Positions 8,823-44,199 of a stretch of 53,874 bases of DNA are shown here, in pieces. Where the stretch lies: contig JAJFFW010000022.1 of the NCBI GenBank assembly GCA_021776435.1, forward strand, positions 1 to 53,874, given 5' to 3'. Below the pieces are notes generated by a model. It did not search any database. It worked only from the letters and a program-made list of their open reading frames with translations, and was not told where the DNA came from. This DNA is from Parvularculaceae bacterium. GTDB lineage: Bacteria; Pseudomonadota; Alphaproteobacteria; Caulobacterales; Parvularculaceae. Position 1 is the stretch's first letter, and every line of letters starts with the position of its first letter. The translations under genes and the position numbers were made by a program.

Positions 8823-11800
8823 TCTGCAGCCTCCGGAGTTTTCGATGGCGCATCCAGCCAGTCAACTTTATTCATCTTCCGAACAATGACGAACTCGTCT
8901 CGATTAGAGCCAACAGTCCCATAATAATTGAATCCATAAGCCTGGTGCGCATAACCCCCGATCATATGCGTCGGCTTCAAGACCGTGCGTGTCACCGAGT
9001 TGTGGATGCCGCCACGTTGTCCGGTGACCTCCGATCCCGGCACATTCACGATCTTTTCTTGAGCGTGGTACATCATCATCATGCCCGGCTTTACGCGTTG
9101 GGAAACCACGGCACGGGCGGTTAAAGCGCCATTCGTGTTATAAGCCTCGACCCAATCATTATCCTCAATGCCTACCTCTTTTGCATCATCTTCACTGAGC
9201 CAAACGATCGGGCCGCCACGTGAGAGCGTCAGCATCAAGAGGTTATCGGTGTAGGTTGAGTGGATGCCCCATTTTTGGTGCGGCGTGATGAAGTTCAAGA
9301 CAATCTGCTTATTGCCGTTGCCCTTCTCGTCAATAACTGGCGCGATAGTTTTTGTATCGACCGGCGGGCGATAAACGCACAGCGTCTCGCCGAAGGCGCG
9401 CATCCATAAATGATCCTGATAGAGTTGTTGGCGGCCGGTCAACGTTCGCCACGGGATCAATTCATGAACGTTTGTATAGCCAGCGTTGTAGCAAACCTTC
9501 TCCGACTCAATGCCAGACCATGTCGGCGAGGAGATGATTTTACGCGGTTGGGCGACGACGTCACGGAAGCGAATCTTCTCGTCTTCTTTAGGTTTGGCCA
9601 AGTGAGCATGCTCACGTCCGGTGATTGCCGAGAGTGCATCCCATGCTTTGACGGCAACTTCACCATTGGTTTCCGGCGCCAGCATAAGAATGACTTCGGC
9701 CGCATCAATATCACTATCGATTCGGGCCAACCCTTTGGTTGGTCCTTCTTCGGTGACGACACCATTGAGCGCTTTGAGATGTTCGATCTCATGCTCGGTA
9801 TTCCAGGAGATGCCTTTTCCGCCATTTCCAATTTTGGCCATTAACGGGCCAAGCGCGCTGAACCTTTTGTAGAGATTAGGATAATCGCGTTCGACGACAG
9901 CGACCGATGGCATTGTTTTACCGGGAATAGGTTCCGCCCCCCCCTTATGCCACTCATCGACGCCGAGTGGTTGTGCAAGTTCACCGGGCGTATCGTGCTG
10001 TATTGGCGTTAGTACGACATCTTGCTCAACACCGAGAACTTCCGGTGCGACTTCGGAAAACGATTTCGCAATTCCTTTGAAAATATCCCAATCGCTTTTG
10101 CATTCCCAAAGCGGATCAACTGCGCTTGTGAGCGGGTGAATAAAGGGATGCATGTCTGAAGTGTTGAGATCATGTTTCTCGTACCATGTGGCAGTGGGCA
10201 GGGCGATATCCGAATAAACGCATGTGGTTGACATGCGGAAATCGATCGTGACCAGAAGATCAAGTTTTCCTTCCGGCGCTTCGTCGCGCCAAGCAACTTC
10301 TTCAGGTTTTTGTCCGCCGATCTCTCCCAGATCTTTGCCTTGAACGCCATGGGCTGTTCCGAGTAGATGTTTGAGGAAATATTCGTGCCCCTTGCCGGAA
10401 GACCCCAGAAGATTTGACCGCCAAACGAACATGTTCCTCGGCCAATTTGCCGGATCGTCCGGATCCTCGCAGGACATTTTGAGCTCGCCGGATTTCAGCT
10501 CTCGCGCCACATAATCTTTCGCCTCCAGGCCTGCAGTGGCTGCATCCTTGGCGATATCTAGAGGGTTGCGCTGAAGTTGAGGCGCCGATGGCAACCAACC
10601 CATGCGCTCAGAGCGCACGTTGAAATCGATAAGGCTGCCGCTCCACGCCCCTTCAGGGGCGAGAGGGGACAGGATCTCATCAAGGCCGAGCGTCTCATAA
10701 CGCCATTGATCGGTGTGCGCATAGAAAAATGAAGTCGAATTCATCTGTCGTGGCGGCCGATTCCAGTCCAGGCCGAAAGCAAGCGGCAGCCATCCAGTTT
10801 GTGGGCGTAGCTTCTCCTGCCCCACATAATGTGACCAACCCCCACCGGATTGACCGACGCACCCGCACATCACCAACATGTTGATGATGCCGCGATAGTT
10901 CATATCCATGTGATACCAATGGTTCAATCCCGCCCCGAGAATGACCATGGACTTGCCACGCGTTTTTTCGGCGTTGTCTGCGAAGCCGCGAGCGACTGCG
11001 ATGACTTTGTCACGCGGCACACCGGTGATTTTTTCCTGCCAGGCTGGTGTGTAGGGGGTGTTTTCGTCGTATGACTTCGCGGCCCACTCGCCTCCGAGCC
11101 CGCGATCAAGTCCGTAATTAGCAACAAGCAGGTCAAAAACCGTCGCAACCAGCGTATCGCCATCATTTAATCGTAGCCGCTTGACCGGCACCCGACGTTC
11201 TAGAATATCTGGATGATCTGTACCCGTAAAATGATCGTGCTCACGGTTCCCGAAATAAGGAAAGGCCACATCAACGGCATCATCGCGATCATCAATGAAT
11301 GAAATTGAAAGTTCAGTTTCGGACCCATCCGCAGTCTTTTCTTCCAGATTCCATTTTCCGTGCTCTCCCCAACGAAACCCGATCGAGCCGCGTGGGGTGA
11401 CAACTTTCCCTGACTTTCGGTCAAAGGCGATCGTTTTCCATTCAGGATTGTTCTTCTCATGCAACGCGCCGTTGAAATCCGATGCGCGCAATAAGCGGCC
11501 AGGAACCAGTCGGCCATCTTTTTCGACCAGCCGTACAAGCATTGGCATGTCTGTGTACTGGCGGGCATATTCCTGAAAATACTCCACCTGCCGGTCGAGG
11601 TAAAACTCTTTAAGGATAACATGGCCAAACGCCATCGCGAGGGCTGCATCGGTGCCTTGTTTTGGCGATAGCCACATATCGCCAAATTTTGACGCCTCGC
11701 TGTAGTCGGGCGAGATCACAACGCTCTTTGCTCCTTTGTATCGAGCTTCCGTATAGAAATGAGCATCGGGTGTGCGCGTTTGTGGTACGTTCGATCCCCA

Positions 11801-12553
11801 GAGCATCAGGAATCCTGAATTATACCAGTCGGCGCTTTCGGGGACGTCAGTTTGTTCACCCCAAGTCATCGGACTTGCCGGCGGTAGGTCGCAATACCAG
11901 TCATAGAAACTCATACACGTTCCGCCGAGCAGTGAGAGGTAGCGTGATCCCGCCGCATAGGAGACCATTGACATCGCAGGAATCGGTGAAAACCCGATCA
12001 CTCGGTCCGGTCCATGCTTTTTGGCTGTGTAAGCGTTGGCGGAGGCGATGATCTCGTTCACTTCCGCCCAGTTTCCACGGACGAATCCACCATGACCGCG
12101 CAACTTAACATAGGATTCGCGGGTCGCAGGCGTTTCAACGATCGACGCCCATGCGGCGACTGGCGTTCTGGTGGCTCGCGCCTCACGCCAGGCTTTTAAC
12201 AACCGGCTACGGATGAGGGGGTGTTTGAGCCTGTTGCCGCTATAGAGATACCAACTATAGCTGGCGCCGCGCGAACAACCCCTCGGCTCGTGGTTGGGTA
12301 AGTCCGGTCGTGTCCGAGGATAATCCGTTTGCTGGGTTTCCCACGTGACAATGCCGCCTTTGACGTAGATCTTCCAACTGCAAGATCCTGTGCAATTCGC
12401 GCCATGTGTGGAGCGCACGATTTTATCGTGCTGCCAACGCTTGCGATAGGCATCCTCCCAAGTGCGATCTTCCTTGGTAAGCACCCCGTGTCCGTTCGAA
12501 AATTCGCTGACACGGTTTTTGAAATAAGTCAGCCGGTTTAGAAGATGACTCAT
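8819..12553 (-). CDS. narG: Respiratory nitrate reductase, alpha (catalytic) subunit
   Basis: A 1244-residue molybdopterin enzyme of normal NarG length. H50, C54, C58 and C93 (HGANCTGSCSW and EPRGCSRG) form the N-terminal Fe-S site with the His ligand typical of NarG. D222 in YDWYCDLPPASP aligns with the aspartate that coordinates molybdenum in Escherichia coli NarG. It has no Tat twin-arginine signal, consistent with the cytoplasmic nNar type rather than an archaeal-like outward-facing pNar. It reduces nitrate to nitrite. Four-base overlaps with both narK and narH show tight operon organisation. Confidence 0.97.
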   Translation of the reverse strand: MSHLLNRLTYFKNRVSEFSNGHGVLTKEDRTWEDAYRKRWQHDKIVRSTHGANCTGSCSWKIYVKGGIVTWETQQTDYPRTRPDLPNHEPRGCSRGASYSWYLYSGNRLKHPLIRSRLLKAWREARATRTPVAAWASIVETPATRESYVKLRGHGGFVRGNWAEVNEIIASANAYTAKKHGPDRVIGFSPIPAMSMVSYAAGSRYLSLLGGTCMSFYDWYCDLPPASPMTWGEQTDVPESADWYNSGFLMLWGSNVPQTRTPDAHFYTEARYKGAKSVVISPDYSEASKFGDMWLSPKQGTDAALAMAFGHVILKEFYLDRQVEYFQEYARQYTDMPMLVRLVEKDGRLVPGRLLRASDFNGALHEKNNPEWKTIAFDRKSGKVVTPRGSIGFRWGEHGKWNLEEKTADGSETELSISFIDDRDDAVDVAFPYFGNREHDHFTGTDHPDILERRVPVKRLRLNDGDTLVATVFDLLVANYGLDRGLGGEWAAKSYDENTPYTPAWQEKITGVPRDKVIAVARGFADNAEKTRGKSMVILGAGLNHWYHMDMNYRGIINMLVMCGCVGQSGGGWSHYVGQEKLRPQTGWLPLAFGLDWNRPPRQMNSTSFFYAHTDQWRYETLGLDEILSPLAPEGAWSGSLIDFNVRSERMGWLPSAPQLQRNPLDIAKDAATAGLEAKDYVARELKSGELKMSCEDPDDPANWPRNMFVWRSNLLGSSGKGHEYFLKHLLGTAHGVQGKDLGEIGGQKPEEVAWRDEAPEGKLDLLVTIDFRMSTTCVYSDIALPTATWYEKHDLNTSDMHPFIHPLTSAVDPLWECKSDWDIFKGIAKSFSEVAPEVLGVEQDVVLTPIQHDTPGELAQPLGVDEWHKGGAEPIPGKTMPSVAVVERDYPNLYKRFSALGPLMAKIGNGGKGISWNTEHEIEHLKALNGVVTEEGPTKGLARIDSDIDAAEVILMLAPETNGEVAVKAWDALSAITGREHAHLAKPKEDEKIRFRDVVAQPRKIISSPTWSGIESEKVCYNAGYTNVHELIPWRTLTGRQQLYQDHLWMRAFGETLCVYRPPVDTKTIAPVIDEKGNGNKQIVLNFITPHQKWGIHSTYTDNLLMLTLSRGGPIVWLSEDDAKEVGIEDNDWVEAYNTNGALTARAVVSQRVKPGMMMMYHAQEKIVNVPGSEVTGQRGGIHNSVTRTVLKPTHMIGGYAHQAYGFNYYGTVGSNRDEFVIVRKMNKVDWLDAPSKTPEAAE

Positions 12554-15312
12554 GCGGATTCTCCTTGCGGAAGGCTTGAAGGTTCAGCGGGCGCCGTTTT
12601 GAGACCACGTTCAATGTCATGAAGCGCGCCGCCTTTGCGTGAATAGACCAACCAGGTGATCGCTGCGCATGTGACGTAGAATATCAGGAACGCCCAGAGT
12701 GCGCCTTCTGGCCCACCAGTCATCGAAATCGATGTGCCGTAGGATTTCGGAATGAAGAAAGCGCCATATGCAGCAATCGCTGAAGTAAATCCGATGATCG
12801 CAGCTGACTCTTTTTCAGCGTGACGTAAACGCTCCGTTGGGTCCAGCGTGGGCATTAAGCGAATCATTTCATCGCGCATAATGATGGGGATCATTTGGAA
12901 GGTTGATGCATTGCCAACTCCTGTTGCGAAGAACAGGATCATGAACATTGCGAAGAAACCCCAGAACGCGCCCGGTTGATCTTTAATCCCGAGGAAATAA
13001 AGAACACCGCCGACCGCGATAATCATCGAGATAAAGACCCAAAAAGTGACGCGTGCGCCGCCCCATTTGTCGGACACCCAGCCAGTCATAGACCGTGAAA
13101 GGGCGCCGACCAACGGACCGAGAAACGCGAACTGCAATACGTTGACATCCGGGAATTGAGTTTTCATGAGAAGCGGGAAACCAGCCGCATAACCGATGAA
13201 TGACCCGAATGTGCCAGTGTAAAGCCAGCACATTATCCAGTTGTGACGACGTGTGAAGATAATCGACTGTTCAGCAAAAGACGCCTTGGCTGACGCGAGA
13301 TCGTTCATGCCGAACCAGGCCGCCACTGTAGCGATCAAAAGGAACGGCACCCAGACAAATCCAGCATTTTGCAGCCATAACATCTGGCCATCGCCGGTTG
13401 TTTGTGGTTCGCCGCCGAGAACGCCGAAGACGCTTGCGGTGATGGCGAATGGAACCAGGAACTGCATGACGCTGACGCCGAGATTGCCGAGGCCAGCGTT
13501 TAGCGCGAGCGCGTTACCCTTTTGAGATTTCGGGAAAAAGAAGCTGATATTGGCCATTGAGGAGGCGAAGTTGCCGCCGCCGAAGCCACAGAGCAACGCC
13601 AGGAAAAGGAAGATGAAATATGGTGTGTCTGGATTTTGAACGGCATATCCTATGCCGAACGCCGGGATCAGGAGCGACGCAGTTGTTAATGTCGTCCATA
13701 ACCGACCGCCGAAGATTGGCACCATGAAGGAATAAAAGATACGAAGTGTTGCGCCCGATAGTCCCGGTAACGCCGCTAACCAGAAAAGCTGGTCGGTCGA
13801 ATAGTCGAAACCAACGGCGGGAAGTTTGGCGACGACGACGCTCCACACCATCCAGACCGAGAAGGCGAGCAATAGCGCCGGGATAGAGATCCACAGATTG
13901 CGGTTGGCGATGCGACGGCCTTTCTCTTTCCAGAATTCGTCATCTTCAGGGCGCCAATCTTCAATGGTTGGACCCGTCGTTTCTCTATGTTTTTCTTCAT
14001 GAATTTCCTGCATTTCCGGAAATTGCGGTAAGGCGTCGAGTTCTGTGCTGAAGGCCTGACGCTCCATGCGCCGAATGGTGAAGTGCATCCAAGCCATCGC
14101 GACAACCACGATTGCAAAGAGCAACATGAAACAACTCGTCCAAATACCTGTCAGGTCATTCATAACCCCGAAACTGATCGGCAGCACGAAACCGCCTAGA
14201 CCTCCGACCATGCCGACAAGTCCTCCAACGGAACCAACATGGTCAGGGTAATAAACGGGGATGTGTTTGTAGACCGCGGCTTTGCCGAGTGACATAAAAA
14301 ATCCAAGTACAAAGATCGTAATGACGAAGGGCACAAGACCCATCTGCGTCGAAAATGTGATCGGCCCTTCTATGCCGTGAATGATGTAATCCGTATGCGG
14401 GTAAGCCAGCATGAACGTGCAAATCGCAGATACGCCGAACGTCCAGTACATCACCTGACGGGCGCCATACTTATCGGATAGGTGTCCGCCATAAGCCCGG
14501 AATATACTTGCCGGGACGGCGTAAGCTGCGGCAAGCATGCCTGCAGTTTTAATGTCGAGTCCGTACACGCCGATCAGGTAACGAGGCAGCCATAGAGCGA
14601 GGGCGACGAAGGCGCCGAATACGAAAAAATAGTAAAGTGAAAATCTCCAAACCTGGAGGCGCTTCAATGGGGTGAGCTGTGAAAATACATCATGTGGTTT
14701 TTCACCTTTTTGTTTTCGCGCTGCCGTTTGCGGGTCTTCTTTTGTGAATAGATAAAAGAGGATAGCCGTGATGAAGAGAACGATCGCGTAAATTTGGGCG
14801 GTCTGCACCCAGCCGAACGCGACGAGCAGGAATGGCGCCCCGAAGTTCGTAACAGCGGCTCCGACATTGCCCATGCCGAATATACCAAGAGCCGTACCTT
14901 GACGCTCTCTTTCGAACCATCTCGAGGTGTAGGCGATCCCGACCGCAAATGATCCGCCTGCCAAGCCAACACCGAGCGCGGCAACTAGGAACATCGGGTA
15001 GGTGCTGACTGTTGATAGCAACCATACGGCAATTGAGGTGATAAGCATCACCCCGGTAAAGACGCGGCGCCCACCAAATTGATCCGTCCAAATTCCAAGA
15101 AAGATTCGGCTGAGCGACCCGGTTAGGACCGGCGTCGCAACAAGTACCCCAAATTGCGTTTCTGATAACCCAAGATCTTGTTTGATCCTGATGCCAATGA
15201 TTGAGAAAATAGTCCATACGGCGAAGCAAACCGTGAATGCAAACGTGCTTGAGCCGAGCATTCTGTTTTGTTGCCCTGGTGTAACGCCAGCTAGATAGTT
15301 CATGATTGTCAT
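12550..15312 (-). CDS. narK: NarK1-NarK2 fusion nitrate/nitrite transporter
   Basis: A 920-residue membrane protein made of two complete major-facilitator units. The first spans about residues 20-410, with NarK-type GMGNVGAAVTNFGAPFLL and GGLGGFVLPISFG. A charged linker of about 60 residues (including TIEDWRPEDDEFWKEKGRR) leads to the second, about residues 470-895, with GNLGVSVMQFLVP. Each half should have 12 helices. This fused form is known from Paracoccus, where one half imports nitrate, probably with protons, and the other exchanges nitrate for nitrite. It is the first gene of the operon and overlaps narG by four bases, so uptake and reduction are co-expressed. Confidence 0.93.
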   Translation of the reverse strand: MTIMNYLAGVTPGQQNRMLGSSTFAFTVCFAVWTIFSIIGIRIKQDLGLSETQFGVLVATPVLTGSLSRIFLGIWTDQFGGRRVFTGVMLITSIAVWLLSTVSTYPMFLVAALGVGLAGGSFAVGIAYTSRWFERERQGTALGIFGMGNVGAAVTNFGAPFLLVAFGWVQTAQIYAIVLFITAILFYLFTKEDPQTAARKQKGEKPHDVFSQLTPLKRLQVWRFSLYYFFVFGAFVALALWLPRYLIGVYGLDIKTAGMLAAAYAVPASIFRAYGGHLSDKYGARQVMYWTFGVSAICTFMLAYPHTDYIIHGIEGPITFSTQMGLVPFVITIFVLGFFMSLGKAAVYKHIPVYYPDHVGSVGGLVGMVGGLGGFVLPISFGVMNDLTGIWTSCFMLLFAIVVVAMAWMHFTIRRMERQAFSTELDALPQFPEMQEIHEEKHRETTGPTIEDWRPEDDEFWKEKGRRIANRNLWISIPALLLAFSVWMVWSVVVAKLPAVGFDYSTDQLFWLAALPGLSGATLRIFYSFMVPIFGGRLWTTLTTASLLIPAFGIGYAVQNPDTPYFIFLFLALLCGFGGGNFASSMANISFFFPKSQKGNALALNAGLGNLGVSVMQFLVPFAITASVFGVLGGEPQTTGDGQMLWLQNAGFVWVPFLLIATVAAWFGMNDLASAKASFAEQSIIFTRRHNWIMCWLYTGTFGSFIGYAAGFPLLMKTQFPDVNVLQFAFLGPLVGALSRSMTGWVSDKWGGARVTFWVFISMIIAVGGVLYFLGIKDQPGAFWGFFAMFMILFFATGVGNASTFQMIPIIMRDEMIRLMPTLDPTERLRHAEKESAAIIGFTSAIAAYGAFFIPKSYGTSISMTGGPEGALWAFLIFYVTCAAITWLVYSRKGGALHDIERGLKTAPAEPSSLPQGESA

Positions 15313-15495
15313 CCCGCCAATTTTGTTGCGCCCGCATTGAAGGTTGCCCTGATGTCAAACAGAGTTTTGTTTGTGCGGCAATTGCGCAAATCGCGCAGTT
15401 TATTGGGTTTTCGAATAAACAAGAGTTGCGATGAAATTGTTTGATTTCAGGATTGATCGGTTTTGTTGCCAGGCTAACGCGCGTCAATTTGTAGC

Positions 15496-15509
15496 TTGAC
15501 ATTTATCAA
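15496..15509. promoter_or_regulatory. FNR/Dnr-type binding site in the narK - regulator intergenic region
   Basis: TTGACATTTATCAA matches the palindromic TTGAT-N4-ATCAA consensus in nine of ten defined positions. It lies 184 bases before narK and 54 bases before the divergent Crp/Fnr-type regulator gene. The adjacent regulator carries the ExxSR recognition-helix residues that read this consensus, so autoregulation together with control of narK is a natural reading. A -10-like TATATC at 15522-15527 lies close on the regulator side. Which promoter it serves cannot be settled from sequence. Confidence 0.7.
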
Positions 15510-15562
15510 GTGACTGAAGGATATATCTGGAAACAACCTTTTGAAGGCTCGCCAGAAACGCC

Positions 15563-16261
15563 ATGCGTAAGAGCGACATTCAGACTGTAAGGAAGCTTGC
15601 ACTCTTCTCGGACATGAGCGATGAGTGCTTTGAAACAATGCTGCAGGGGGCGTTCCTTCAGCGTTTTCCCTCAGCAGTCGTCCTTATTGGTGAAGGCGAG
15701 CCAGCGGACTTTCTCCATATTGTCGTCGATGGCTGTGTTGAGCTTTACGCAACGACGAACGGCCGAGAATCCACAATGGCGGTGGTGAGACCTGTCGCGA
15801 CGTTCATTCTGGCGGCCGTACTCGCTGACGCTCCTTATTTGATGGCGGCGCGCACGATCGAGTCTTCTCAGATTCTTATGATCCCAGCGGAAAATTTACG
15901 GGATGCAATGAAGAATGATGCAGAGTTGACGCGTGCTGTCGTTAACGAGCTTGCGAATAGTTATCGATCGGTTGTTAAAACTTTAAAAAACCACAAGTTG
16001 CGTTCCGGAGTAGAACGTCTCGCTAATTATCTCGTTAGCACCCATGAAAACCAAGGTGCGAATGGGAGGATATACCTGCCTGTAGAAAAGAAATTGCTCG
16101 CTTCGATGCTCGGCATGACGCCTGAAAACCTTTCCCGAGCTTTTGCGACTCTCAAACCTTATGGAGTAAGAGTGAAGGGAGCGGATATTGAAATCTCTTT
16201 GATTGACGATCTGCGTGTCCTCGCAAAACCCAACGAGTTAATTGATAATCCACGAAGCTAA
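15563..16261 (+). CDS. Crp/Fnr family regulator, NarR-like, without Fe-S cysteines
   Basis: A 232-residue regulator with an N-terminal cyclic-nucleotide-type sensor fold (residues 12-110), a long dimerisation helix, and a C-terminal helix-turn-helix. The recognition helix MTPENLSRAF holds E188, S191 and R192, the FNR-type combination that binds TTGAT half-sites. Only two cysteines (C22, C58) are present, so the 4Fe-4S oxygen sensor of FNR is missing. This resembles Dnr, NnrR and NarR; Paracoccus NarR lacks the cluster and sits beside narK, responding to nitrate or nitrite. Position next to the narK fusion supports a NarR-like role; the signal is inferred. Confidence 0.82.
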   Translation: MRKSDIQTVRKLALFSDMSDECFETMLQGAFLQRFPSAVVLIGEGEPADFLHIVVDGCVELYATTNGRESTMAVVRPVATFILAAVLADAPYLMAARTIESSQILMIPAENLRDAMKNDAELTRAVVNELANSYRSVVKTLKNHKLRSGVERLANYLVSTHENQGANGRIYLPVEKKLLASMLGMTPENLSRAFATLKPYGVRVKGADIEISLIDDLRVLAKPNELIDNPRS

Positions 16262-16278
16262 ACCGAAAAGATAATGTT

Positions 16279-16596
16279 ATGACAAGATTACTTCCATCCG
16301 CCGCCGGAAACGTCGCTCAATCATATCCTGAAATTTGGAAAGCCTATGCAGACTTGGGCAAATCGGTTTCGAGCGCTGGGCCGCTTACGCCGAAAATGCG
16401 ACGCCTTGTAAAACTCGGGCTCGCGATAGGTGTCGGGTCTGAAGGAGCCGTGCATTCCCATGTGCGCCGAGCGCTTGAAGAAGGTCTTTCGAAAGACGAG
16501 ATCAAGCATGCAACGTTGTTGGCGATCACGACGATTGGGTTTCCTAAAGCCATCGCAGCGTTGAGCTGGGTCGAAGATATTACTGATGCTTCCTAA
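16279..16596 (+). CDS. Carboxymuconolactone decarboxylase family protein (cysteine-free)
   Basis: A 105-residue helical protein with the CMD/AhpD fold: SEGAVHSHVRRALEEGLSK is the usual E..H..A..G motif, but the cysteines of the AhpD-type redox centre are absent, and the protein has no cysteine at all. A peroxiredoxin-reductase role is therefore unlikely. It starts 17 bases after the regulator gene and is probably co-transcribed with it; its last four bases overlap the convergent nnrS. Similar small CMD proteins occur near denitrification genes, but their function is not known to me. Confidence 0.7.
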   Translation: MTRLLPSAAGNVAQSYPEIWKAYADLGKSVSSAGPLTPKMRRLVKLGLAIGVGSEGAVHSHVRRALEEGLSKDEIKHATLLAITTIGFPKAIAALSWVEDITDAS

Positions 16597-17795
16597 TTCG
16601 AAAGGCGCGCAGGTATTCGGGGTCGCATAAGGGACGGCCCGTACGATGCAATGAACAACAAAAAAGCGGCGCTCCACGATAAGCTAGATAGCGCGACAAT
16701 CGCGCCGTAATCTATCGGCGCCCAGATTGCTGTGACCCGCAAGACGGCTCCAATGTTTATGAGGGCGTAAATGAAGAGTGTTGATCCATTCGCACTCAGT
16801 GGTCTTCCCGTATGACCGAGCGAAGCGCGAGTCATAACAGCAAGTGTCATGACTCCAATTGCACCAGCCGTAAGGGCATGAAGGGCGGCGGTCGCCGGAA
16901 AGGTTACAGGCGCCATTACGCTGGCTCCCATTAATAAGATCGCGGCGCAAAGCCACGCATATCCTATATGAAGAATGAACACTGTTGGTTCGGCAATCGT
17001 CCTCCATCCTTTCCATCTCAAGAGTCGAAGGATGTGAAGGGCGCTCGCAAACAAGAGAAGGTAGCCCGTTACGATATTTTGGGGTGCGAAAAACCATGAC
17101 GCCAAGCCGGCCGACAAAACTGCGATCGCGACCTTATCAAACCAACTGAAGATGGCCTCGATCGGTAGACGCTTGTTCTTTACAAGCCAGTTATGCGTGA
17201 AACTTGGCGTTATGCGACCTCCGATTAATGTGATCAGGACGGCTGCGACTGCGAGGCTCCACCGCACCCCAACAGACCCAGCACCGCCGTGCAACAGATC
17301 AACGTGCCAGAGGGTGTTTCCCAATGCGAAGAGAAAAATCAATATACAGATTGGTGCGTTGCGCCAGTTTTTTCCGGCAATTACTTCACGCCACATAAAG
17401 GCATTCAAAACAAACATGAAGGACGAATCTATGAGGGCGACTATCCACGGATCAATAACAGTTGAAACTGCGATAGATAGGCGACCCGCGAGCCATAACC
17501 CAAATAAAGCCGCAAGGGGCCACCCCAGCAAAGGCAAGCGACCGGTCCAATTTGGAATTGCAGTGAGCACAAACCCCGAAATAATCGCGGCGAGATAACC
17601 AAAAGTCATTTCGTGCCCATGCCATGAAAAAAGAGGGGAAGCCGTTTCGAAGACTGTTCCGCGATATAGTGCATTCGCTGTTAAGAGAGGCACTAGGGCA
17701 GCCATAACCGCACCCCCCATAAAGAAAGGGCGAAAACCGAAGCTAAAAATGGCTGGTCCTTTGTAGTCGCGAATGTGCTCTGCGGATTTCTTCAC
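16593..17795 (-). CDS. nnrS: NnrS family heme-copper membrane protein
   Basis: A 400-residue protein with about 12 membrane helices. The start carries the NnrS signature FSFGFRPFFMGG, then SWHGHEMTFGYLAA and GFVLTAIPNWTGRLPL, which include conserved histidines. It begins with GTG, with GGAG eight bases upstream. NnrS proteins are linked to denitrification regulons and protect against nitric oxide stress. Its presence beside nar, without a nitrite reductase in view, suggests that the cell meets NO from its own nitrite or from elsewhere. It converges with the CMD gene and is transcribed alone. Confidence 0.88.
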   Translation of the reverse strand: MKKSAEHIRDYKGPAIFSFGFRPFFMGGAVMAALVPLLTANALYRGTVFETASPLFSWHGHEMTFGYLAAIISGFVLTAIPNWTGRLPLLGWPLAALFGLWLAGRLSIAVSTVIDPWIVALIDSSFMFVLNAFMWREVIAGKNWRNAPICILIFLFALGNTLWHVDLLHGGAGSVGVRWSLAVAAVLITLIGGRITPSFTHNWLVKNKRLPIEAIFSWFDKVAIAVLSAGLASWFFAPQNIVTGYLLLFASALHILRLLRWKGWRTIAEPTVFILHIGYAWLCAAILLMGASVMAPVTFPATAALHALTAGAIGVMTLAVMTRASLGHTGRPLSANGSTLFIYALINIGAVLRVTAIWAPIDYGAIVALSSLSWSAAFLLFIASYGPSLMRPRIPARLSN

Positions 17796-19282: not shown

Positions 19283-20113
19283 TTGGTGAGTAAGACAGAT
19301 CAAATCATCATTAAGCGGGTGAAAAAAGTCACCGGCGGAGGGCACCATGGCGGGGCATGGAAGGTCGCGTATGCAGACTTTGTTACGGCTATGATGGCTT
19401 TTTTTCTCCTGATGTGGCTGTTGAATGCGACAACAGAAGAGCAAAGAAAAGGGATTGCGGATTATTTTAATCCGACGATTCCTATAAGCCAGATTTCGGG
19501 TGGCGGATCTGGCGTACTTAATGGATCTTCGGTTTTCAGTGACGACAGTTTGGCAAAAAACGGAACGGGTAGCACAAGCACTTTCTCGCCTCGTTCGTCT
19601 GAGCCGAAGGAAAAAAGTGACAATAAGTTAAATGCCGATGAGCAAAAGGCGCTCGAAGGCGTTAAGCAAAACTTGCTTCAGCGCGCTCTCGCGCAGGACG
19701 GCGATAGTCTGTCGCGACATATACAAACACGTATGACGCCCGAAGGCCTTGTCATCGAGCTGGTTGAGGTGGATGGAAGCCCGCTTTTTGAGGTGGGGTC
19801 TTCCAGGCCGTCGAAAACTATGCGTCGATTGCTCGAAGTTGTCGCAAACGCCATAAGCATTGTTGCGAATGATCTCGCTATCGTTGGGCATACGGATAGC
19901 CTCGCTTACGCGAACGACCGAGATTACTCGAACTGGGAACTCTCTACGGACAGAGCCAATATGGCCCGCCGCCTGATGGAGGCTGCCGGAATGGATCCAC
20001 GCCAAATTAATGAAGTTGCAGGAAAGGCGGATACTGAGCCTCTGACGCCAGATCCATTAGCGCCGCAAAATCGTCGGATTTCCATAACGCTTTTAAAAAC
20101 AGCGACTCGTTAA
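19283..20113 (+). CDS. motB: Flagellar motor stator protein MotB
   Basis: A 276-residue stator subunit. AWKVAYADFVTAMMAFFLLM (residues 25-44) is the single membrane helix with the proton-carrying D32. A plug/linker of low complexity follows, then an OmpA-type peptidoglycan-binding domain (about residues 145-274) with VGHTDSLAY and QNRRISITLLK. It starts at TTG 19283, or at GTG one codon later; neither has a strong ribosome binding site. Sequence features fit a proton-driven rather than sodium-driven motor. Its partner motA lies 12 kb away in another block. It leads the motB-flgE-flgK-flgL-flgI run. Confidence 0.93.
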   Translation: MVSKTDQIIIKRVKKVTGGGHHGGAWKVAYADFVTAMMAFFLLMWLLNATTEEQRKGIADYFNPTIPISQISGGGSGVLNGSSVFSDDSLAKNGTGSTSTFSPRSSEPKEKSDNKLNADEQKALEGVKQNLLQRALAQDGDSLSRHIQTRMTPEGLVIELVEVDGSPLFEVGSSRPSKTMRRLLEVVANAISIVANDLAIVGHTDSLAYANDRDYSNWELSTDRANMARRLMEAAGMDPRQINEVAGKADTEPLTPDPLAPQNRRISITLLKTATR

Positions 20114-29920: not shown

Positions 29921-30066
29921 TTGTAATTCGCCCGTTAATACCTAGCGCTAACAAAATAATTCCAACGCTCTGAATTTCATTTACCATTTGATCATTAAGA
30001 GGAGGTTACACATACAAGCATCAAATGGGCGTGAGCGAAGTTTTTCACGTGAAGTGGAGCTCGAGA

Positions 30067-30585
30067 ATGAGCGATGAAGAAACAACGACGGAAGAAGATG
30101 CCGGCCAGGACGAGCTCGAAAAGAAGCCCTCGCCTGTAAAGTCAATTCTCTTCTCCGTATTGCTAGCGTTGGTCATGGGTGTTGTTGCGGCAGGCAGCGT
30201 GTATTTGTTTGCTCCAACGCAGGTCGCAAGTGACGCTTCGGCATCGAATGAGAAATCAAGCCATAAAAGTAGCCATAACAAACGCGATGTCACATACGTT
30301 AATCTGGAACCCCTTGTGGTGACGTTGGGCCCGGACGCCCAATCAAGTTATCTAAAGATTTCAGTCACGCTCGAGACGACTTCAAGTCATGAAAAAACAC
30401 TAATCGAGATGATGCCGCGATTTAGAGATGTATTGATTAGTTATCTGCGCGCAGTTGATGAAAATGATTTGATTCAACCTTCGGCAATGATCCGTCTGCG
30501 TGCGCAGATGTTGCGAAGGTTGCAACTTGTTGGTTCAGAGGAAGCAGTGAATGACGTCCTCATTACAGATTTTGTCTTAACTTAG
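30067..30585 (+). CDS. fliL: Flagellar basal-body-associated protein FliL
   Basis: A 172-residue protein starting MSDEETTTEEDAGQDELEKK. GGAG stands eight bases upstream of this ATG, so the longer frame from 30025 is less likely. One membrane helix (about residues 26-48) is followed by a linker and the FliL domain: YVNLEPLVVTLG, SYLKISVTLETTS, MPRFRDVLISYLRAVDENDL. FliL rings surround and strengthen the stator. It opens the fliL-DUF6468-motE-motA run. A second FliL-like gene lies at 37719. Confidence 0.9.
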   Translation: MSDEETTTEEDAGQDELEKKPSPVKSILFSVLLALVMGVVAAGSVYLFAPTQVASDASASNEKSSHKSSHNKRDVTYVNLEPLVVTLGPDAQSSYLKISVTLETTSSHEKTLIEMMPRFRDVLISYLRAVDENDLIQPSAMIRLRAQMLRRLQLVGSEEAVNDVLITDFVLT

Positions 30586-30595
30586 GAGGCCCGTT

Positions 30596-31078
30596 ATGGA
30601 ACTCGTTACGGATTTTCTGCTTCTCGCCGCCACCGGAACCGCATGTCTTTACTGTTGGATTCTCAGCAAGCGACTGAAGCGACTTACCAATGCAAAGAAT
30701 GGATTCGGCGCAGGGATCGCCGCTCTGTCACATTCAGCCGAAGAGATGAAGGCAGTGATGGAGAGTACGAAAGTATCGGGCGACGCTGTCGCACATCGCC
30801 TGGAGACTCTATTGATCAAATCGGAAAATAGGGTTTCGCATCTTCAAGATTTGCTTCAACAGGTCACTGACATGCGAGAATCCGCAATGGATGAAACAAG
30901 GCAAGTCACTTTGAAATACACGGAAACTCTTTCGCCATTGATCGAAGAGGCAAATGAGAGTGCAGATCGTTTGTTTAATGCGTTAGACGCAGCATCCGCC
31001 GCTGAGTTGGAGATGATGTGCAGGCCATTCGGACAAGATGCGGATAAACGCCCTCTCAAAGTTGCTGTAAATCTCTAA
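30596..31078 (+). CDS. DUF6468-like flagellar-operon membrane protein
   Basis: A 160-residue protein with one N-terminal membrane helix (residues 3-22) followed by a long, mostly helical cytoplasmic part: RLKRLTNAKNGFGAGIAALS, a heptad-like region about residues 65-120. The layout matches the small proteins annotated as DUF6468 between fliL and motE in alphaproteobacterial flagellar operons. I infer this from position and architecture, not from a search. It starts ten bases after fliL. Function is unknown; stator or export accessory would fit. Confidence 0.6.
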   Translation: MELVTDFLLLAATGTACLYCWILSKRLKRLTNAKNGFGAGIAALSHSAEEMKAVMESTKVSGDAVAHRLETLLIKSENRVSHLQDLLQQVTDMRESAMDETRQVTLKYTETLSPLIEEANESADRLFNALDAASAAELEMMCRPFGQDADKRPLKVAVNL

Positions 31079-31875: not shown

Positions 31876-32742
31876 ATGGGCAGTATAATTGGTATAGTAA
31901 TTACTGTTGTTATGGTCTTCGGCGGTTATATGATCGCTGGCGGACATCTAGAGATTATCCTTCATTCCTTGCCCTATGAGATGATGATAATTGGTGGCGC
32001 CGCCACTGGCGCCTTTGTTGTCGGTAACGATCTTTCGGTCATCAAGCACACAGCAGCCGATCTTGTAAAGATTTTTACAGGTGCGCGCTGGAAGCGGCAA
32101 GATTATCAAGATCTTCTTTGTCTTTTATTTGATTTAGTGCGGATCGCAAAAGAAAGCCCCGTTGAAATTGAGAGGCATATAGAAAACCCATCCGAGTCGA
32201 CGGTCTTCGGTAAATACCCAAGAATTAACGCCGATAACGAAGCAATCGATATGATCTGCGATACGATCCGTTCTATGACAATGAATTTCGATAACCCACA
32301 CCAAGTCGAGGAATTACTCGAAAAACATCTTGAATCATTGCACGAAAATAGCATGCATGGCGCTCATGCCTTGCAGAAGATGGCGGATGGCCTGCCGGCT
32401 CTTGGGATTGTGGCAGCGGTTCTTGGCGTGATAAAAACCATGGCGTCTATTGATAAACCACCCGAAGTTCTCGGGCAGATGATCGGTGGCGCCCTAGTCG
32501 GGACGTTTCTCGGTGTTTTCCTCGCATACGGACTGGTTGGGCCATTTTCAGACAAAGTCATGGCAATTCGGGAGGAAGAAAGTCGCTTTTACGCTCTAAT
32601 TCGTGAAGCCCTTGTCGCCAGTCTGAATAAGCATACGCCTCAACTTTGTGTGGAGGTCGCGCGCCGGAATGCGCCGAAAAAATTTCGACCTAGTTTCAAC
32701 GACCTTGAAGATGCGATTCGTGCTTCGCAGAAGGCTGCATAA
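31876..32742 (+). CDS. motA: Flagellar motor stator protein MotA
   Basis: A 288-residue protein with four membrane helices: helices 1-2 near the N-terminus (MGSIIGIVITVVMVFGGYMI), a large cytoplasmic loop, then MADGLPALGIVAAVLGVIKT and GGALVGTFLGVFLAYGLVGP. Both prolines important for torque in characterised MotA proteins are visible in these last helices. It works with MotB as a proton channel. An 87-base AT-rich gap before it (TATATTAATTATAAAA near 31806) may contain its own promoter. It overlaps the next gene by one base (TAATG). Confidence 0.95.
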   Translation: MGSIIGIVITVVMVFGGYMIAGGHLEIILHSLPYEMMIIGGAATGAFVVGNDLSVIKHTAADLVKIFTGARWKRQDYQDLLCLLFDLVRIAKESPVEIERHIENPSESTVFGKYPRINADNEAIDMICDTIRSMTMNFDNPHQVEELLEKHLESLHENSMHGAHALQKMADGLPALGIVAAVLGVIKTMASIDKPPEVLGQMIGGALVGTFLGVFLAYGLVGPFSDKVMAIREEESRFYALIREALVASLNKHTPQLCVEVARRNAPKKFRPSFNDLEDAIRASQKAA

Positions 32743-34997
32743 TGATAACCCGCACGGCCATAACGCTTTTTTGCACTTTGTTTTTCGTTGGCGATGCCTT
32801 CGCGGAGGGAACCGTTGACTTCTCCGCAGGGGAGCATGCAGATCATTCGAGAATTGTGATCTCAGGCAGTGATACAGAATTAAATGTCACTCAATCGGGG
32901 AGAGATATAGAAATTCACTTCCGTAGCGTTATTGACAAATTTAATTTGGCAGATGTCAATATATTTAGAAAAGCGCACCGGGTTTTAAAAGCGGATGAGG
33001 CGTCCGTGGCTTCCGGGTCACTCGTTCGTTTGCAGCTTAACTGTGATTGTCAAGTCAAGACTATGCAGTTAGAGGATGGCGACTGGACTCTTGATATATT
33101 CGACTCTGTACAAAAACAAAAATTGGTTGAGAAAACCAAACCTGTACCTCAAAAGAAATCAGAGTCGACGCTGAAAGATAATAAACAAAAGCAACGTAAC
33201 GATGAGGATGTGGACACGCTATCTGTTGATCAGGCGCATACGAGGATGGTTGATCTTCTTCAACAAGCTGCAGATGAGGGGCTAATTGTCATCAAATCTA
33301 AGACTGAAGAAACAGCCGATCCGTCTACGGGAGATGATTCAAGAAGCGTGTTCGAGGAGATCGCCACCATCGCGATCGACAAAGATGAACACATCGAATC
33401 CGTTTCACAAGCACCTCCAAAAGTGTTGGCGCCTGGAGCTTGCTTACCAGATGATGATTTCGCCATTGATGGGGAGCGTTTTGAGAAGAATCCGTTAGTG
33501 GAAATAGCGGAGCTGCAATCGAATATTATCGATGCGTCTGCTGAACAACAAAGAGAAGTGATTGAGAAACTTGCAGGTGGATTTCTGGCAATTGGGTTTG
33601 GGGAAGAAGCATTAGCACTGTTAACGGATAGCGGATTGGAAGGCATATTGCTGGCGGATATGGCGCGCACAGTGGCGGAAAAACCAATCCAGGCATCAGG
33701 AATATTGCTCAATGCCATTGAGTGCGGGGGCGCGCATGCCCTTTGGCAAGCAGCTGCAAGTGAACCAGCGGTGGCTACCGAAAAGTTTCATAGGTCAAGT
33801 GATGCTGTAACTTTGCTTCCGAAACGGTTGCGCGCATTGCTTGGGGCAAGAATAGCTCAGAAGATGATTGATGCAGGCGATTGGGCCACGGCTAATCGCC
33901 TTTATGAGATTGCGGCTTCGGCGTCTGAAATTCCGACACCAAAATTACAATTTGTTGCGGCGCGATTGCGCGAGCATGAGGGGGCCACGGAGGAATCACA
34001 GGATTTACTCCTCGATCTTGCCGGAAGCGGGAGTGATGCCGCTAAAGACGCGCTCTTAATGCTTGCTGAACAATATGCAGTTGGTCAGGGAGAACCGCAT
34101 GTTGGGTTTGTTGATGATCTCGGTGCGCTTGCGAAAGTGCAGCGAGGCTCTGACGATGGGGCGCAGGCAGCATTTATGGAAGCGCTCATTTGGTCTGAAG
34201 CCGGTAATGTCGAAGCAAGTATGTTGTTGTTGAGAAGTGCGGCGAATTCCAGCCCTGCGAAAGCGGAAAAGTCGCGTTTAAAAGCGCGTGAAATTCTTAC
34301 CAAGGCATTTTCGTCTCCAATCGAAGCTGAACGTATTTCAGCGCTCGCGGCATTCATGGATCATCGTGAATTTGTTGAGTCCATCGACCCATCCCCCACG
34401 TTTCAGCAAAATGTGGCCCGGTCAGCGCTGGACTTAGGGCTGCCAAACATTGCGTTCGATGTTTTGAAAGACCGTGCCCTCTCGTCGAAAAAAGAATTGA
34501 TGCAGCTTAAGGCGTTAGCCGCGCTGGAGGGGCACAACACTGAAGGTGCGCTCGCTATGGCGGCGCCGTATACGAACGACCCAGAATTTGCGGAGCTCGT
34601 TGTAAGGGCCAACATGCAACAGAGAAATTATTTTGCAGCGCTTGCGGTAGCTTCCACGCTTCCCAACTCGAGTAAAAAAGAAATCTTGACTTCACAATCG
34701 GCATGGCGAGCTGGCGATTGGGAGAGTGCTGAGAGGGCATTTCGTCGTATGGATCCCAGTTTGATGGGAGAAAATGTGGCCATTCAATATGCATTTGCCG
34801 CGTATATGTCTGGCGTCAGTGTAATTCCGCCTGCTGCAGAAGCGGTTTTAAGAAGAACGAATAGCAGTGCCCTTGCGGGAATTAAAAGCCTTTTTTCGAA
34901 TGCGCTTGAAGGATCCATTTTGGATCGCGCCCGAACGGCCACGATGGGCGCGACAGAGGAAATTGAGTTACTTGAGGAGGCGCTTAGTCATGGATAA
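32742..34997 (+). CDS. Periplasmic beta-domain plus helical-repeat (TPR-like) flagellar-cluster protein
   Basis: A 751-residue protein with a signal peptide cleaved after FAEG (about residue 23). Residues 25-120 look like a beta-rich, AMIN-like domain (RIVISGSDTELNVTQSGRDI). A basic linker follows (KPVPQKKSESTLKDNKQKQR), then an acidic stretch, and from about residue 250 to the end a solenoid of paired helices rich in A and L (NRLYEIAASASEIPTPKLQF, LKALAALEGHNTEGALAMAA). Its start overlaps motA and its end overlaps flgF by eight bases, so it is embedded in the operon. I do not recognise a characterised homologue; a periplasmic scaffold around stator or rings is a guess. Confidence 0.65.
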   Translation: MITRTAITLFCTLFFVGDAFAEGTVDFSAGEHADHSRIVISGSDTELNVTQSGRDIEIHFRSVIDKFNLADVNIFRKAHRVLKADEASVASGSLVRLQLNCDCQVKTMQLEDGDWTLDIFDSVQKQKLVEKTKPVPQKKSESTLKDNKQKQRNDEDVDTLSVDQAHTRMVDLLQQAADEGLIVIKSKTEETADPSTGDDSRSVFEEIATIAIDKDEHIESVSQAPPKVLAPGACLPDDDFAIDGERFEKNPLVEIAELQSNIIDASAEQQREVIEKLAGGFLAIGFGEEALALLTDSGLEGILLADMARTVAEKPIQASGILLNAIECGGAHALWQAAASEPAVATEKFHRSSDAVTLLPKRLRALLGARIAQKMIDAGDWATANRLYEIAASASEIPTPKLQFVAARLREHEGATEESQDLLLDLAGSGSDAAKDALLMLAEQYAVGQGEPHVGFVDDLGALAKVQRGSDDGAQAAFMEALIWSEAGNVEASMLLLRSAANSSPAKAEKSRLKAREILTKAFSSPIEAERISALAAFMDHREFVESIDPSPTFQQNVARSALDLGLPNIAFDVLKDRALSSKKELMQLKALAALEGHNTEGALAMAAPYTNDPEFAELVVRANMQQRNYFAALAVASTLPNSSKKEILTSQSAWRAGDWESAERAFRRMDPSLMGENVAIQYAFAAYMSGVSVIPPAAEAVLRRTNSSALAGIKSLFSNALEGSILDRARTATMGATEEIELLEEALSHG

Positions 34998-35709
34998 TGC
35001 AGGCTATGTAGGGCTGACCAGGCAAGCGGGGTTATTACGTGAGTTGAACGCGATTGCGAACAACATCGCTAACCTCAATACAACTGGTTATCGTCGTGAA
35101 GGGGTCGTCTTTTCAGAACACGTGAAGGCGCTTGGCAATGATGATCCTAGTCTTTCGATGGCAACAGCGAGCCACCGTTTTGTAGACCTCAATGTTGGTG
35201 AGATTAAAAGAACAGACAACTCGCTCGATTTCGCGATCGACGGTGATGCATTCTTCCTTATAGAAACGCCAGCTGGGCAACGCCTGACGAAGGCTGGAGC
35301 ATTCACGGTCAACGAGGTTGGTGAACTTACTACAGGTGGTGGTGCGCGCGTGCTCGATGAGGGCGGGGGGGCAATCGTTCTGCCCACTCAAGCACGCGTT
35401 ATCTCCGCAACACCCGATGGGTCACTGATGGCCGATGGTCAACCGGTAGGACGTTTAGGTTTGATGAAAGCGGACCCGGCTTTCCTCGTACGAGAGGGTG
35501 ACAATTTATTTCGTGCTGACCAGGGGTTTGAACCCGCAGATGATGTAAAAGTTCGTCAGAATGCACTTGAAGGATCCAATGTCAGTGCAGTGACGGAAAT
35601 TGCACGTCTGATTGAAGTACAGAGAACGTATGAGTCGGGGCAGAAACTTTTCCAAAATGAGGATGAGCGAATTAGGAAAACGGTCCGTGACCTGGGGCAA
35701 ATGCGATGA
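34990..35709 (+). CDS. flgF: Flagellar proximal rod protein FlgF
   Basis: A 239-residue rod protein starting MDNAGYVGLTRQAGLLRELN, with GAGGAGG nine bases upstream inside the end of the previous gene; a longer frame upstream has no such site. ANNIANLNTTGYRREGVVF is the rod N-terminal motif and SAVTEIARLIEVQRTYESGQ the C-terminal one. FlgF is an export substrate of the proximal rod. It is 34 bases before flgG; length and the shorter C-terminus distinguish the two. Confidence 0.92.
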   Translation: MDNAGYVGLTRQAGLLRELNAIANNIANLNTTGYRREGVVFSEHVKALGNDDPSLSMATASHRFVDLNVGEIKRTDNSLDFAIDGDAFFLIETPAGQRLTKAGAFTVNEVGELTTGGGARVLDEGGGAIVLPTQARVISATPDGSLMADGQPVGRLGLMKADPAFLVREGDNLFRADQGFEPADDVKVRQNALEGSNVSAVTEIARLIEVQRTYESGQKLFQNEDERIRKTVRDLGQMR

Positions 35710-37718: not shown

Positions 37719-38258
37719 ATGATGAAATTTCTCCCTGTAATCTTGCAAGTAATTTTTGTTTTCGGCGGCGTGATGGCTGGCCTTTGGCTGAAATTTACGC
37801 CAGATGCCGGCGCCGATCATGTTGAGATTGAAGCCGATGATCATGCTCTGGTCACACATGACAATACGAATGAAAACGCTGAGAAGAAAAAGAATAAATC
37901 GGGTGGAGGTCATGGTGCTGACAATATGAATTCCGATAATGGGTATATGAAATTCAGCCGTCAGTTTATCGTGCCGGTGTTGGATAAGGCTGGTGTTAAT
38001 TCACTTGTTATCCTGGAATTAAATATCGAAGTGCCATCAAACGCAACTGAAACCATATATGTTAAGGAACCCAAGTTAAGGGACGTATTATTGAGCCGTC
38101 TATTACAACTCTCCAATGGCGGAGCCTTTGACGATCAGATAACTGAGCAAAGAAAGCTGGACACGCTTCGCGTGGAATTACTTGAGGCGGCGCAGGGCGT
38201 TATCGGTGAGAGCGCGATAAATATTCTGATATTAAATATATCAAGACAAAACGTTTGA
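37719..38258 (+). CDS. Second FliL-like membrane protein
   Basis: A 179-residue protein (start at 37719 or the ATG one codon later). One N-terminal helix (residues 4-24), a polar, acidic then lysine- and glycine-rich linker to about residue 65, and a C-terminal domain with VILELNIEVPSN, EPKLRDVLLSRLLQLSNGGA and INILILNIS. The last part parallels FliL. Rhodobacter sphaeroides has a FliL-like extra motor protein, MotF, needed for rotation; this could be an analogue, but I cannot show orthology. It follows flgH by seven bases and its end overlaps the convergent flgD by 18 bases. Confidence 0.6.
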   Translation: MMKFLPVILQVIFVFGGVMAGLWLKFTPDAGADHVEIEADDHALVTHDNTNENAEKKKNKSGGGHGADNMNSDNGYMKFSRQFIVPVLDKAGVNSLVILELNIEVPSNATETIYVKEPKLRDVLLSRLLQLSNGGAFDDQITEQRKLDTLRVELLEAAQGVIGESAINILILNISRQNV

Positions 38259-42916: not shown

Positions 42917-43357
42917 ATGACAAGCGGATTGGTTCTTCGTCTTCGGCCAAACGAGAAATTTCTCGTGAATGGCGTTGTATTAGAAAATGGCGATCGCCGA
43001 ACGCGCCTTCGTGTTACCTCACAAAATGCGAAGATATTGCGTCTGCGGGATGCCTTGCACCCTAATGATGCGAACACGCCCACCAAACGTCTTTATTATA
43101 TTGCTCAACTTGCGGTCGCAGGTGAAGCGAGTGTTGAAGACATCAAAGAAGAACTCTTGTCCGGGTTGTTGAAACTGCGTGCAGCGTTCGGTGATGAAGA
43201 GGGTAGCAAAGATATAGATATGGCAATCGAAGCCGCCAAAGAGGAACGCTTTTACCACGTTATGCGCTCTTTGCACCGGGTAATCCCGCACGAAGTTCCG
43301 CTCTTGATGGCAGTTCGGCCTAAAGGCATTGAGATCGCGGAAATCAATACGCGCTAA
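42917..43357 (+). CDS. flbT: Flagellin mRNA-binding regulator FlbT
   Basis: A 146-residue protein with LVLRLRPNEKFLVNGVVLEN GDRR at the start, AKILRLRDALHP, and RRAL-type helices including RFYHVMRSLHRVIPHEVPLL near the C-terminus, typical of FlbT. In Caulobacter it binds the 5' leader of flagellin mRNA and shortens its life when assembly is incomplete. The hairpins at 41132-41241 are the likely target here. It follows flaF by two bases and overlaps the next gene by one base (TAATG). Confidence 0.93.
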   Translation: MTSGLVLRLRPNEKFLVNGVVLENGDRRTRLRVTSQNAKILRLRDALHPNDANTPTKRLYYIAQLAVAGEASVEDIKEELLSGLLKLRAAFGDEEGSKDIDMAIEAAKEERFYHVMRSLHRVIPHEVPLLMAVRPKGIEIAEINTR

Positions 43358-44199
43358 TGTTTTTTCAACCGGCAATCGGCGTTGGTGGATATGGTGGTTG
43401 GCGCATATTGCAGGCGACGGCGTCACGTCAGCAAGAGACTTTTGAGAAGTCGCCATCGCTTGGGCGTGATATCGAATATTTTCGTGAGAATATTACGAAA
43501 GCGACCACTGCGGAAGCGCTTGTCAAAGATCGCCGTTTATTAAGAGTGGCGCTTGGCGCGTTCGGTCTCAGCAGCGAGATTAATAAACAAGCCTTAGTAC
43601 AGAAAATACTGGCTGATGGAACGGAAGAGCCGACTGCATTCGCTAATCGATTAGGGGATGCGCGCTTTAAAAATCTCGCAGAAGCATTTGATTATGGTAA
43701 TATTACTGCTGGATCAAATATCTTATTAAAATCGTTCCGTGAAGATATTATTGCCCGATTTAAAACTCAGGAGTTCGAACGAGCTGTCGGAGAAACCGAC
43801 GGTGATATGCGCCTTGCGTTGAACTTTAAACGAGAAATCGGCGCCATCGCATCAAGCGAAAGCGTAGACAGAGTTGGTTGGTTTCAAGTTATGGGACAGA
43901 GACCTCTGCGAACGCTCATTTCAACGGCGCTTGGCTTGCCAGAGAGTGTTGCGCAGCTCGATCTCGATAAACAGCAAGAAATATTTCAGGACAAAGCGCG
44001 TGATTTATTCGGAGACTCGTCTGTTTCCGTTTTCACCGATCCAGAAAATGTTGAAACGGCGATCCGCCAATTTTTTCTTTTTCAGCAAATAAAAGACGGT
44101 TCAACGACGGTTACACCTGGTACAACGGCGCTTACCTTGCTTCAAAGCGCTAGCTTTGGCGGCGCCGGGGGCGCCAACCTGTTTCAATCGCAAGTCTAA
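43357..44199 (+). CDS. DUF1217 family flagellar protein
   Basis: A 280-residue protein starting MFFQPAIGVGGYGGWRILQA. It shows the repeated helical units of DUF1217: SLGRDIEYFRENITKATTAE, LLRVALGAFGLSSEINKQAL, and NRLGDARFKNLAEAFDYGN. The family occurs in alphaproteobacterial flagellar loci, often beside flaF-flbT, and is poorly characterised. Translation is probably coupled to flbT through the one-base overlap. No signal peptide or membrane helix is seen, so a cytoplasmic or exported-by-flagellum location is possible. Confidence 0.82.
   Translation: MFFQPAIGVGGYGGWRILQATASRQQETFEKSPSLGRDIEYFRENITKATTAEALVKDRRLLRVALGAFGLSSEINKQALVQKILADGTEEPTAFANRLGDARFKNLAEAFDYGNITAGSNILLKSFREDIIARFKTQEFERAVGETDGDMRLALNFKREIGAIASSESVDRVGWFQVMGQRPLRTLISTALGLPESVAQLDLDKQQEIFQDKARDLFGDSSVSVFTDPENVETAIRQFFLFQQIKDGSTTVTPGTTALTLLQSASFGGAGGANLFQSQV

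Follow-up and report, generated by a model that had tools for sequence, protein, structure and literature searches.

Organisation of the flagellar locus

The window, by which we mean the whole stretch of 53,874 nucleotides analysed here, carries a flagellar cluster of a Parvularculaceae bacterium in which an open reading frame of 751 codons is located between motA and flgF. The features relevant to this gene, all on the + strand, are as follows.

19283..20113, +: motB, presumed binding partner of MotK (MotB_plug and OmpA domains)
30025..30585, +: fliL (PF03748, 66.6 bits)
30596..31078, +: pflI homologue (alignment, and place in the fliL-pflI-motE-motA-motK operon of PMC10954123)
31102..31788, +: motE, homologue of the E-ring proteins MotE/FlgY/FlbB (MgtE_N 37.9 bits; weak FlbB match; alignment)
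31876..32742, +: motA, stator (TIGR03818, 368.7 bits)
32742..34997, +: motK, 751 aa (open reading frame; synteny and homology)
32742..32804, +: motK signal peptide, residues 1-21, cut likely after AFA (sequence inspection; model helix 2-15)
32811..33104, +: motK AMIN domain, residues 24-121 (structure; Foldseek matches to AmiC and PilQ; PilQ sequence match; alignment)
33105..33491, +: motK disordered linker, residues 122-250, with a single helix at 162-178 (pLDDT and DSSP)
33492..34988, +: motK helical solenoid, TPR-like, residues 251-749 (structure; Foldseek; Pfam TPR matches in homologues)
34990..35709, +: flgF (Pfam; start codon and homologue starts)

The initial annotation had described a 751-residue frame overlapping both of its neighbours, and the frame is indeed open throughout. 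It shares one base with motA, the last base of the motA stop codon (TAA) being the first of the motK ATG (32742), and eight bases with flgF, the true start of which (34990) lies inside motK, downstream of a GAGGAGG run resembling a ribosome-binding site. Single-sequence searches found a motK homologue in 20 of 61 related genomes, in every case between motA and flgF, and the motA-motK overlap is 1 or 4 bases at every junction measured among these relatives.

Elsewhere in the window, a second FliL-like gene (37719-38258) is located 3′ of flgH; its match of 18.6 bits is below the Pfam cut-off, and it is kept across the clusters of the family. A DUF1217 protein is encoded at the flagellar locus (43357-44199). 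The region adjoining the cluster (7305-17795) encodes the alpha and beta chains of a respiratory nitrate reductase, NnrS, and a 920-residue MFS protein which, having three MFS stretches, is perhaps a fused nitrate transporter.

Predicted structure of MotK

By inspection, MotK begins with a Sec signal peptide, as had been proposed (MITRTAITLFCTLFFVGDAFA followed by EG), and residues 2-15 form the corresponding helix in a full-length AlphaFold model built with 13 homologues (mean pLDDT 74.9). The model then has an eight-stranded β domain (residues 24-121), a low-confidence linker (residues 122-250) containing one helix (162-178), and approximately 30 helices across residues 251-749. The initial annotation had described a charged linker and a long helical solenoid and had staked its reading on the latter being found in structure models; the solenoid is present.

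When modelled alone from an alignment of 34 sequences, the β domain has a pLDDT of 93.7, and its first and second ranked fold matches in the PDB are the AMIN domain of AmiC (TM 0.75) and the B2 domain of PilQ (TM 0.70). Among PDB sequences, a profile of the domain matches PilQ alone (E 0.0036), and 13 of the 34 aligned members touch the Pfam AMIN-like family. Because of these fold, profile and Pfam matches we assign it as an AMIN domain, in agreement with the β-rich, AMIN-like domain previously suggested. In AmiC, AMIN is a peptidoglycan-binding domain. The alignment reveals invariant GEH..SR and CDC motifs in the AMIN domain of MotK. The CxC pair (C101 and C103; window positions 33042-33050) is invariant among AMIN-bearing forms, whose invariant C234 and C328 are shared by all aligned AMIN-less forms, which suggests that these cysteines form disulphides or a metal site.

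MotK homologues match Pfam TPR families; MotK itself, searched over its whole length, stays below the cut-off of every Pfam and NCBIfam family, and the family therefore escapes routine annotation. Searches of PDB sequences with the MotK sequence and profile gave no convincing match to a solved structure. In a Foldseek search of the full model against 350,542 PDB chains, the first-ranked chain was 9hmf_K (E 1.9e-8; 773 residues), from the periplasmic scaffold of the Campylobacter jejuni motor; 9hmf_L (683 residues) ranked 23rd. The whole-chain TM-scores for 9hmf_K are low (approximately 0.2), which is expected for flexible solenoids, yet is not decisive. Going by length, in view of the known sizes of the two proteins and of PMC12222027, we take 9hmf_K to be PflA (residues 16-788) and 9hmf_L to be PflB. 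The kinship with FimV raised at the outset is not borne out, as no LysM domain is found above the cut-off (LysM_OapA, 16.7 bits against 22.3) and the model most resembles, in structure, AmiC, PilQ and the C. jejuni chain that fits PflA.

Identification as MotK

Gene order, the arrangement of domains and a profile match along the full length identify the window protein as MotK, which was described in 2024 in Cereibacter sphaeroides, where it is encoded in the operon fliL2-pflI-motE-motA2-motK (PMC10954123). The C. sphaeroides protein, comprising an AMIN domain and a TPR-like part, is periplasmic and polar, is required for rotation, and binds MotE and MotB2; MotE is unstable without MotK, and the location of MotK depends on MotA2/MotB2 (PMC10954123). 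With this Fla2 MotK (RSWS8N_12065) the window protein shares the operon order, the Sec signal, the TPR-like helices and the lack of an annotated conserved domain (PMC10954123). The C. sphaeroides AMIN domain, at approximately residues 23-119, likewise has eight strands, with AmiC as best and PilQ as second fold match (PMC10954123). The two proteins differ in length (652 residues in C. sphaeroides, 751 in the window).

The order fliL-pflI-motE-motA-motK, read in the window from open reading frames and Pfam matches, is the same in Rhodobacteraceae loci, although the downstream gene is flgF in the window, whereas flhA is usually the next recognised gene in the Rhodobacteraceae loci seen. A scan of genome contigs with the single MotK protein found no relatives, and an alignment of Rhodobacteraceae MotK offered no sufficiently conserved stretch to scan with, so that loci in named genomes were gathered by MotA scan. 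This gave 80 loci, 78 of which, nearly all from Rhodobacteraceae, have enough sequence past motA. At each of the 78, the protein 3′ of motA is matched by the HMM of the window family with E<1e-5 (median 5.6e-44), and at 77 the AMIN part of the HMM is matched as well. Aligned by hhalign, the profile of the window relatives matches that of the Rhodobacteraceae MotK-position proteins with a probability of 100 (E 1.7e-54) over both AMIN and solenoid; pairwise identity between the two families is low. This comparison set is defined by position, the C. sphaeroides MotK sequence itself lying outside the retrieved loci. In family f23, which we take to include the Rhodobacteraceae, the MotK profile is matched in 136 of 200 genomes (135 of 199 genera), and each of the 50 loci inspected has a MotK-profile protein directly 3′ of motA.

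The feature first picked out from the sequence is real, and the window gene is an added member of an already known family. It is not uncharacterised, as had been stated: there is genetic and biochemical work on MotK, and genetic work on its probable relative FssB. With these results MotK is no longer confined to Rhodobacteraceae, nor is the 'E-ring plus spoke' architecture proposed for MotE and MotK, and the new profiles detect the family where annotation reads 'hypothetical protein'. The 137 kb plasmid pD4M1D of Paroceanicella profunda (L024) carries a flagellar cluster with motK, the latter annotated in just these words.

Relationship to other motor proteins

In Caulobacter crescentus, deletion of FssB (CC_2058) results in paralysed flagella, as does deletion of motB; fssA suppressors map to the MotB plug, and fssB acts via the stator (PMC7885107). 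Kinship between MotK and FssB was proposed by the MotK authors from structure only; by BLAST, they saw no similarity between MotK and its Caulobacter counterpart (PMC10954123). FssB resembles MotK in being a secreted TPR protein adjoining motE, with an N-terminal AMIN domain according to PMC10954123. Proteins in the FssB layout differ from MotK in their length of 977-1262 residues, in the extra AMIN-like copies that several of them carry (six loci), and in not being encoded beside motA. When 387 genomes of the class were searched with a profile, proteins of 1000-1400 residues were found that match the AMIN part, some of them twice; at six loci with such proteins, the protein is near motE in the layout of Caulobacter FssB. 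The solenoid profiles of MotK and of FssB-layout proteins align by hhalign at 99.5% (E 2.3e-22), a kind of match that the solenoids of unrelated TPR proteins may also give. The neighbourhood and the AMIN motif therefore carry weight for the kinship, and we consider FssB a probable relative of MotK. Four loci (L178-L181; genomes G021, G015, G164 and G005) belong to a second flagellar cluster with the Caulobacter layout, in which motE is followed by a gene for a 541-704 residue protein.

A review and a preprint list MotK, MotC and CC_2058 as PflA-like, and group MotE, FlgY and FlbB together in a single E-ring family, the coiled coils of which are directed outward to PflA-type spokes (PMC13023049, PMC11870540). 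PflA of C. jejuni (PDB 9HMF; PMC12222027), for which structure and mass photometry have been reported, has, like MotK, a signal peptide, a β-sandwich, an unstructured linker and a TPR superhelix, the long flexible linker after the β domain or AMIN being common to both. PflA also contacts an E-ring protein homologous to MotE (PMC12222027), and the 9HMF chain fitting PflA by length is the best PDB fold match of MotK. The likeness is structural only: PflA was not among the PDB sequences matched by the MotK profile. In PflA, the β-sandwich and linker dock on PflB, with the solenoid directed to the axis (PMC12222027). Apart from motK, no large TPR gene, and hence none like PflB, was seen among the flagellar reading frames of the window, so that MotK may not share the geometry of PflA. 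MotC of Sinorhizobium meliloti, compared by description, is likewise periplasmic, reported to be TPR-rich, and MotE-dependent, but no AMIN domain is reported for it and its gene is located 3′ of motB.

Proposed role in the motor

The operon, the homology to MotK and the C. jejuni scaffold as best fold match bear out the link to the flagellar motor made in the initial annotation. We propose, with a probability of roughly 0.75, that the window protein, as MotK, is a periplasmic strut linking the MotE E-ring and the MotA/MotB stators, with its AMIN domain most likely anchored to peptidoglycan. MotK would be exported through Sec, its TPR-like solenoid forming the strut. One end would contact the outward-pointing coiled coil of MotE, the heads of which would form the E-ring around the MS-ring, and the strut would position or activate the stators via the portion of MotB that lies in the periplasm. 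The flexibly linked AMIN domain would fix the far end, most likely at peptidoglycan, or else at another partner. Of this model, the homology, the domain order, the operon and the co-occurrence of MotE with MotK are shown here, and paralysis, polar location and binding to MotE and MotB2 are known from a homologue, whereas the spoke geometry, the contact with peptidoglycan and the validity for this species are inferred. Should the C. sphaeroides results carry over to the window species, loss of MotK would leave a flagellum that is assembled but does not rotate. The earlier suggestion of peptidoglycan attachment or a ring role stands in so far as a scaffold is likely, in agreement with the MotK and PflA papers; for MotK itself, attachment and ring are putative.

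Alternatively, MotK may be mainly a stator activator or a chaperone, for example for MotE or in opening of the MotB plug, rather than a structural spoke. Such a role would accommodate the instability of MotE without MotK and the dependence of MotK location on MotA2/MotB2 in C. sphaeroides (PMC10954123), the plug suppressors of fssA and the action of fssB through the stator in C. crescentus (PMC7885107), and the existence of several lineages without AMIN. It sits less easily with the length of the solenoid, with a motor-scaffold protein as the best fold match, and with the contact of homologous MotE/FlgY ring coils to PflA spokes in Campylobacterota (PMC13023049, PMC11870540), and we regard it as less likely, though by no means negligible. 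That MotK is an envelope or pilus-type protein (a FimV or secretin partner) merely sited in a flagellar operon is highly improbable: AMIN is typical of PilQ and amidases, but the gene is directly 3′ of motA, mostly with motE in the operon (Rhodobacteraceae loci and most window relatives), LysM stays below its cut-off, and MotK is absent from all eight genomes that have no FlgG match among the 200 of the window's order.

Erosion of MotK within the order

AMIN-bearing MotK (approximately 720-830 residues) adjoins fliL-pflI-motE in the window and in most relatives. Two further families and two genera encode, between motA and flgF, a protein without AMIN that mostly has 567-637 residues, with fliL-pflI-motE located elsewhere at the loci checked; in two genomes MotK is without AMIN yet motE is still beside motA. 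Three of four loci in genus g19 encode a protein of only approximately 420-450 residues, a candidate short MotK for which hhalign gives probabilities of 76 to the window family and 0.7 to the AMIN-less forms. In genus g3, flgF is directly 3′ of motA in five of six inspected loci (the sixth has no flgF call), and searching the genome with either profile brings up no MotK. Among MotK-position loci, AMIN is a variable module, MotE and motA being retained. Since many proteins in the same position lack AMIN, anchoring by this domain is not essential everywhere. A tie between loss of AMIN and loss of MotE and PflI was considered and rejected, as both are present in all 57 searched genomes with a MotK-profile match and are merely displaced in most AMIN-less lineages.

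The MotE head domain scores 22-37 bits, and the rest of the protein -4 to 8, at the four motK-less g3 loci, compared with 75-103 and 19-148 bits in MotK-bearing groups. This degradation is consistent with, but no proof of, a role of MotK in keeping MotE in shape, and the case is that of one genus and perhaps one event. We tentatively suggest, at somewhat less than even odds, that the conserved working part of MotK is the solenoid that meets MotE, with AMIN an optional addition that has been gained, multiplied or lost. MotK would then shrink stepwise, from AMIN with solenoid through the solenoid alone and a short solenoid to complete absence, while MotE stays, and its loss would free MotE, the conserved coil and head surfaces of which would largely serve to hold MotK. 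The AMIN-less, shortened and missing forms provide a natural comparison series on the roles of AMIN and the E-ring in the motor, and the value of the window gene lies in this series and in the extra family member. In the motK-less genus g3 (L185, L186 and L187), pflI encodes 280-451 residues, compared with approximately 160 in the window, a possible compensation for the absence of MotK.
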